42,820 nucleotides of DNA, taken from positions 1 to 42,820 of the forward strand of contig JALVEY010000014.1 in assembly GCA_027030485.1 (NCBI GenBank), given 5' to 3'. Positions 41,440-42,820 of this stretch are shown here, in pieces. Origin of the DNA: Persephonella sp. (lineage in GTDB: Bacteria > Aquificota > Aquificia > Aquificales > Hydrogenothermaceae). Both the position numbers and the translations under genes were made by a program. Positions within the stretch are counted from its first letter, which is position 1; every line of letters starts with the position of its first letter. The notes beneath the pieces are model-generated. The model was given only the letters and a program-made list of their open reading frames with translations. It searched no databases and was not told where the DNA came from.

Positions 41440-42504
41440 ATGCTTTATCACTTATTATACCAGTATTTTGATATAAACCTTTTCAAATACATAACTTTTA
41501 GAGGTTTTTATGCCTTAATTACGTCATTTTTTATATCTTTGATTATTGGTCCATACATAATATCAAAACTAAAACTTTTTCAGGAAAAGGAAGGGGGTTA
41601 TGTCAGAGAGTATTTGCCTAACGGCCATGAGCTAAAAAAACATACACCAACGATGGGAGGTGTACTTATTATTCTTTCCGTTTTGATATCTGCTTTGATG
41701 TGGTGCAGGCTTGATAATTTTTATGTGTGGATCACTGTTTTTAGTATGCTTTCATTCGCCATTCTTGGGGGTTGGGATGATTACAAAAAGGTAAAGACTA
41801 AAAGAGGAATTTCGTCAAAAACGAAATTTGTTATTCAAATATTATTAGCATTTTTTGTGGCAATACTCTTGCATCTCTATCCTGATTTTAACTCTGTTCT
41901 TTATATGCCTTTTTTAAAAAATGTTCATATTGATCTGGGAGTTTTTTACATTCTTTTTATGGTTTTTATTATTGTCGGCACATCAAATGCAGTAAACCTT
42001 ACAGATGGTCTTGACGGACTTGCTATAGGTCCTTCTCTTATCGCGATAGCCTCTTTTGCATTTTTTGCTTATGTAGCCGGTCATTCCAAACTCGCAGAAT
42101 ATTTACATCTTCCTCATATAGCAGGGAGTGGGGAACTTACAGTTTTCATGATGGCATTACTGGGAGCTGGTCTTGGTTTTTTATGGTTTAACTCATTTCC
42201 TGCTGAAGTTTTTATGGGAGATGCTGGATCACTCTCAATAGGTGCTGTACTGGGAACTGTTGCTATAATCACAAAACAGGAAATCGTTCTCGCAATAGTG
42301 GGAGGAATATTTGTTGTAGAAACACTTTCGGTCATACTTCAGATAACTTATTTTAAGATAACAGGAAAAAGGCTTTTCCTGATGGCACCTCTCCACCATC
42401 ATTTTGAAAAAAAAGGTATAGAAGAGCCAAAAATAGTCACAAGAGTATGGATAATATCTATTTTGCTTGCGATAATAGCCCTTTCAACTCTAAAAATCAG
42501 ATAA
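41440..42504 (+). CDS. mraY: Phospho-N-acetylmuramoyl-pentapeptide-transferase
   Basis: KKHTPTMGGVLII, NAVNLTDGLDGLAIG, FMGDAGSLSIG, APLHHHFE. Confidence 0.98.
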   Translation: MLYHLLYQYFDINLFKYITFRGFYALITSFFISLIIGPYIISKLKLFQEKEGGYVREYLPNGHELKKHTPTMGGVLIILSVLISALMWCRLDNFYVWITVFSMLSFAILGGWDDYKKVKTKRGISSKTKFVIQILLAFFVAILLHLYPDFNSVLYMPFLKNVHIDLGVFYILFMVFIIVGTSNAVNLTDGLDGLAIGPSLIAIASFAFFAYVAGHSKLAEYLHLPHIAGSGELTVFMMALLGAGLGFLWFNSFPAEVFMGDAGSLSIGAVLGTVAIITKQEIVLAIVGGIFVVETLSVILQITYFKITGKRLFLMAPLHHHFEKKGIEEPKIVTRVWIISILLAIIALSTLKIR

Positions 42505-42756
42505 GTTTCAAAATCTTAGTCTGTCAATCATAGATTTTAAAGGTGTAGTTGAGACAAAATCTCACAGAAAAATTGACTGATTTTTCGGTTTTGACTGTGA
42601 ATGTCAACAGTTTGGCGATCCCCAGGGATTTTTACAGGATTGGAGGTTGACGGGAAATTAATTTAATTTGACAGAGATTGCCGTTTTTTTTATATTTAAG
42701 ATAAGTTAGATTTATCAATGGTTTCTTGACAATAGAATAAGAGATGGATTGGATGG
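42505..42756 (+). other. Putative CRISPR leader
   Basis: ORF-free AT-rich region directly upstream of the CRISPR-type repeat, with a promoter pointing into it and several short inverted repeats. Confidence 0.75.
42668..42696 (+). promoter_or_regulatory. Candidate sigma-70 promoter for the CRISPR transcript
   Basis: TTGACA (42668-42673) - 17 nt - TATATT (42691-42696). Confidence 0.65.
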
Positions 42757-42820
42757 GTTTTAGAGTGCCTATAAGGAATTGAAACTCTATCAAATATTTG
42801 ACAACATAATAAGTCTTGCC
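42757..42820 (+). CRISPR. First CRISPR repeat (42757-42785) and 35 nt of probable first spacer (42786-42820); array truncated by window edge
   Basis: GTTTTAGAGTGCCTATAAGGAATTGAAAC, with the ATTGAAAC 3' end typical of type I-B/III-associated repeats; only one repeat visible. Confidence 0.87.

Follow-up and report, generated by a model that had tools for sequence, protein, structure and literature searches.

The right end of the window, the whole stretch of 42,820 nucleotides from Persephonella sp. analysed here, holds the beginning of a CRISPR array, and we consider it probable that this is the older allele of an array whose newer allele, assembled separately on contig C104, has undergone three further acquisitions from one virus, the contig of the window having broken at this strain difference. 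Such a reading accounts for the stop at position 42820, where the window reaches the full right end of its contig (C14). The locus is valuable in that the newly gained spacers, the probable virus they match and the presumed earlier state are available together, and it illustrates how a recent uptake of spacers may reveal itself by a contig break at the end of the first repeat of an array. It furthermore ties a Hydrogenothermaceae-like host that is hard to culture to a probable virus and a testable PAM (5'-TTA). The original prediction for this stretch had rightly read an array end on the plus strand, and had not foreseen an alternative array allele.

The 29-mer GTTTTAGAGTGCCTATAAGGAATTGAAAC occurs in the window as a single copy, at the predicted position 42757–42785 on the plus strand, and no chance copies are expected there even if 3 mismatches are allowed. 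A preceding G had been named as a possible part of the repeat, and because this base is kept in most copies (18/21 on C104 and all printed copies of the genome's other arrays), the repeat is 30 nt long (GGTTTTAGAGTGCCTATAAGGAATTGAAAC, 42756–42785, +), as located by sequence search and an Rfam match. The latter, to CRISPR-DR2, reached 32.1 bits, which is below the 37-bit cut-off, and was reported on the opposite strand. Throughout the 1.45-Mb genome (175 contigs, 83 % complete) we found 91 copies of the repeat with at most 3 mismatches, one in the window, 21 on C104 and the rest on C12, C60 and C70, while a reversed control pattern of the repeat gave 0 copies. Besides the window copy there are therefore 90 copies in four arrays, all on other contigs, and the same repeat is also present on contigs titled Persephonella, Sulfurihydrogenibium or Aquificota. 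A single copy with nothing more in the window could have been a chance repeat-like sequence instead of an array, but this explanation is refuted by the 91 genomic copies, their regular spacing, the unique spacers, the conserved leader, the cas genes and the virus matches with a PAM.

Upstream of the repeat, sequence comparison delimits a leader at 42511–42755 (+). As far as the contigs extend, all four arrays of the genome have its part at 42604–42755 in conserved form; the part at 42511–42603 recurs only at the C70 array and in many relatives. The leader was found in 23 of 60 relatives, often at several places, and lies 5' of the first repeat, so the predicted leader end of the array is confirmed. 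It contains the putative array promoter TTGACA-17 nt-TATATT (42668–42696, +; 11/12 consensus bases), about 60 nt ahead of the first repeat. With 2 promoter-like sites found against 1.4 expected, a single site is not significant alone; TTGACA with the 17-nt spacing nevertheless recurs at the same distance from the repeat in 35 of the 37 leaders examined, the intervening bases varying. Leader position, forward promoter and a protospacer PAM lying 5' in the spacer sense all agree with the prediction that the array is read on the plus strand, and the array is presumably transcribed and active. In the upstream leader part, at about 42553, we also noticed a palindrome resembling AATTGAGACGRAGTCTCA.

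The array follows mraY (41440–42504, +; an ORF named by eye from the sequence). In a relative (G011, locus L093), whose MraY is 91.8 % identical, an array with the same leader likewise follows mraY, and the locus therefore predates the split of these species; two other relatives, G006 and G001, similarly carry several arrays at common positions. The gene blocks that flank arrays (a thrB block and a thiO block) are oppositely oriented between species (L087 and L088 vs L031 and L076), which suggests a role of dispersed arrays as endpoints of inversions. At the other end of the window, positions 1–1253 resemble C30 (2782–4035) of the same genome with 86 % identity over 1256 nt, reflecting either a paralogue or a related organism's sequence in the bin.

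As predicted, the array continues past 42820. Positions 1–126 of C104 are 100 % identical to window 42660–42785, covering leader and first repeat, and are followed by 20 further copies; the resulting 21 repeats are spaced 64–70 nt apart and separated by unique spacers, so that the anticipated copies at this spacing are found on C104, the window contig itself ending at 42820. Because this 126-nt overlap is identical, whereas the leaders of the C70, C12 and C60 arrays differ from the window leader by 10–12 %, we assign C104 to the same locus as the window. The 35 nt behind the window repeat (42786–42820, +) were correctly described as non-repeat sequence; they can now be specified as a 36-nt spacer lacking its last base owing to the contig end, and as the fourth spacer of C104 rather than the first, with window 42757–42820 matching C104:297–360 (repeat and spacer 4) at 100 %. 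One leader with its first repeat thus has two continuations, into spacer 4 in the window and into spacer 1 on C104.

We take both joins to be alleles probably present in living cells, the window join being seen at one contig end over 35 nt. The contigs of the C104 and C60 arrays both start exactly 126 nt ahead of their own first spacer, an offset to be expected of a de Bruijn assembler (k presumably near 127) wherever the first repeat leads into several different sequences. It could be argued that the assembler instead jumped between identical 30-nt repeats, misjoining leader and first repeat to spacer 4, in which case the C104 allele alone would exist; repeats of this length are classic misassembly sites, and the joined stretch comprises just 35 nt at a contig end. 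The final k-mer near 127 suggested by the 126-nt contig overlap lies far above the repeat length, however, and a random jump would land at the boundary of the virus-matching block of spacers only 1 time in 20. No jump is involved in C60, moreover, whose break has the same offset, and a branch at repeat 1 therefore exists regardless. A misjoin of this kind thus appears unlikely to us. At its far end, C104 overlaps C148 by 147 nt with 98 % identity, which is a separate sign of strain variation.

Directly behind the C104 and C12 arrays, and behind some arrays of relatives, lies a two-gene pair (about 160 and 98 aa in overlapping frames; L031:1559-2257, L032:333-1023 (−), L087:7345-8053 (−), L090:4780-5079), the first gene of which is interrupted on C104. 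We considered this pair as a CRISPR-linked module and rejected the idea, since it occurs widely in the genus, in most cases with no array within 1.5 kb, and so gives no firm link. The C12 array is also adjoined by ATP-citrate lyase genes (named by eye), in keeping with a heat-loving bacterium of the Aquificota.

The target of the additional spacers is a virus-like contig of 32,753 nt, G029:C163, which belongs to another genome bin with 9 % contamination. A first search of 61 relatives, made with every spacer of C104 and C12 and with 14 from C70, placed eight matched spacers on this contig, and local comparison of all 89 spacers of the genome raised the number to 17 at up to 3 mismatches: C104 spacers 1, 2 and 3, C60 spacers 1 and 2, C12 spacer 5, and C70 spacers 1, 7, 8, 9, 10, 13, 18, 19, 20, 22 and 42. 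At the same threshold none of 216 spacers from relatives matched (best, 5 mismatches) and none of 89 shuffled or reversed spacers (9 or more mismatches), so that with 17/89 matches against 0 in the controls the array spacers derive from foreign DNA. The matching spacers are leader-proximal (P = 9e-5), and 5'-TTA stands beside 12 of the 17 protospacers, including those of all three C104 spacers (background 3.4 %, P = 1e-14).

G029:C163 (L137–L138) encodes an integrase, a replication initiator, a DNA methyltransferase, lysozymes, a transglycosylase and a transglutaminase-like protein, and among the proteins tested none could be identified as capsid, portal or terminase; it is a probable integrating virus of these bacteria. 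Its lysozyme genes include a tandem arrangement, and a pair of adjacent proteins (187 and 146 aa), for which no relatives were found, is perhaps structural; the one structural-looking protein of the contig that was searched against the phage collection and IMG/VR yielded no relative. When an 8-kb part of G029:C163 was searched in the present genome, nothing was detected beyond the spacers and a single weak match of 35 nt on C58. Exact searches of IMG/VR with the window spacer and the repeat returned no matches, nor did the C104 array match the phage collection; in the plasmid collection this array gave one hit, to an Aneurinibacillus plasmid (72 % over 31 % of the query).

Three arrays carry near-identical spacers (91–94 %) built around the palindrome AATTGAGACGRAGTCTCA and beginning at the same base (L031:458-498, L033:7630-7670, L034:11166-11205 (−)). 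No source of these spacers was found in relatives, and the motif is absent from IMG/VR by exact search; the notion that they target CRISPR leaders of relatives was dropped as unsupported, the similarity extending over about 16–18 nt only.

Within the C104 array, spacers 1–3 each match G029:C163 with 1 mismatch and spacers 4–20 do not match it, the chance that three matching spacers out of 20 are exactly the first three being 1/1140. As the three spacers that C104 has in excess of the window are exactly its virus matches, the simplest history places spacer 4 first, followed by spacers 3, 2 and 1. The Cas1-Cas2-Cas4 proteins of such systems place new spacers at the leader. Starting from the older allele of the window (leader, repeat, spacer 4), they would have inserted spacers 3, 2 and 1 from one virus beside the leader in part of the population, generating the newer allele of C104, in which leader and repeat lead into spacers 1, 2 and 3 and only then into spacer 4; the population, mixed at the first repeat, would then have caused the assembly break and with it the contig end at 42820.

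The opposite direction of change would make the window allele the derived one, a C104-like array having lost spacers 1–3 when its repeats 1 and 4 recombined. The resulting sequence would be indistinguishable, and repeat-mediated change does occur in these arrays, since C70 spacers 31 and 32 are identical and relatives contain duplicated spacers. Such a deletion must nonetheless have taken exactly the three virus-matching spacers, which carries the same 1 in 1140 chance if it was unrelated to the placing of the matches. Escape from targeting offers a weak motive for it, because C70 retains 11 spacers and C60 two against the same contig. We therefore judge a deletion to be quite improbable, and acquisition rather than loss to be the likely change between the alleles.

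In the C104 array (L031:98-1455), 3 of the 21 repeat copies have a base other than G at position 1, and the other printed arrays have G there; the repeat here also has G in place of T at position 2, which creates a G run at the leader border and may permit integration to slip by one base. The repeat ahead of spacer 4 is preceded by T and not by G, and in the virus the protospacer of spacer 3 likewise continues with a T, as if integration had slipped by one base; this minor feature fits the acquisition history. Along the C70 array (L033:6120-9092), the repeat variants are arranged in blocks outward from the leader, TATAAGG being succeeded by TATGAGG and finally by ...AAAT, an order that would follow from the first repeat serving as template for every new one.

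The C60 array, which breaks at the same offset, has spacers 1 and 2 matching G029:C163, as expected if two arrays diversify at their leader ends in one population. Extending the acquisition reading, we tentatively propose, as a possibility somewhat short of even, one recent adaptation wave that brought spacers from one virus into two or more arrays simultaneously (spacers 1–3 of C104, 1–2 of C60 and perhaps 1 of C70). Older spacers targeting this virus would probably have primed the wave, unadapted cells would still be present, and both contig breaks would mark the event.

No cas genes were seen in the window (ORFs inspected by eye, ten less obvious ones scanned), as had been stated before, and a search elsewhere in the genome located type I-B cas genes on C60 and C70. 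On C60, the adaptation genes lie directly downstream of the array in the order array-cas4-cas1-cas2, with Cas1b matching TIGR03641 at 443.8 bits (cut-off, 304.1). C70 carries the end of cas7, cas5, cas3, an ATPase gene and a 45-repeat array; Cas5b matches TIGR02592 above its cut-off, Cas3b matches a PADLOC model, and Cas7b (Csh2) gives a partial match below the NCBIfam cut-off because C70 begins inside cas7 and the gene is cut by the contig start. In the same operon, toxin-antitoxin-like genes (MNT/HEPN-like, and an antitoxin-like gene with RelE) were noticed between cas7, cas5 and cas3 (L033:449-1085 and L033:1845-2372).

With models for Cas1b, Cas2b, Cas4b, Cas3b, Cas5b and Cas7b matched, the CRISPR-Cas of this genome is, by the cas genes found in its sequence, type I-B. 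Queries with a relative's Cas6 and Cas10/Csm1 found no match in this 83 % complete genome, which means little given the incompleteness; in relatives, cas10/csm1, cmr1 and cas6 adjoin arrays with the same leader and repeat, and the repeat family probably serves type III there. The predicted I-B/III affiliation holds. We infer that the window array, being without adjacent cas genes, is served in trans by those on C60 and C70.

Compared with known type I-B systems (Csh2/Cas7b, Cas5b, Cas3b, Cas1b-Cas2b-Cas4b), the present one is alike in a repeat ending in ATTGAAAC, spacers of 34–41 nt, Cas1b and Cas5b models above cut-off and a 5' PAM ending in A, and nothing distinctive separates it from them, save that toxin-antitoxin-like genes stand among the C70 cas genes and that cas genes and most arrays lie on separate contigs. 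Its 5'-TTA resembles the PAM candidates of Clostridium type I-B systems (TNA, NAA and NCA; in C. tetani the candidates include TTA; PMC4860712). Dispersed arrays, 1 to 13 per genome, are described for Aquificales (PMC4227106), and here too there are several, some without adjacent cas genes; different are the genus-wide leader family of about 180–275 nt and the occurrence of some arrays at the same chromosomal places across species. As for Pyrovirus, uncultivated viruses tied to Aquificae hosts by spacers (PMC7689252), the host is assigned via Aquificae CRISPR spacers. A close parallel to the two alleles is found in Microcystis, where the leader-end variants CT19origin, CT19new+ and CT19proto coexist in one population (PMC5852275). 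There as here, forms with and without the newest spacers occur and older forms begin at a later spacer of the newer; that work relied on deep amplicon sequencing over months whereas our alleles are deduced from two contigs, and the targets of the added spacers are identified here. Both the system and the population variation are of known kinds, and the finding is a fresh instance of them.
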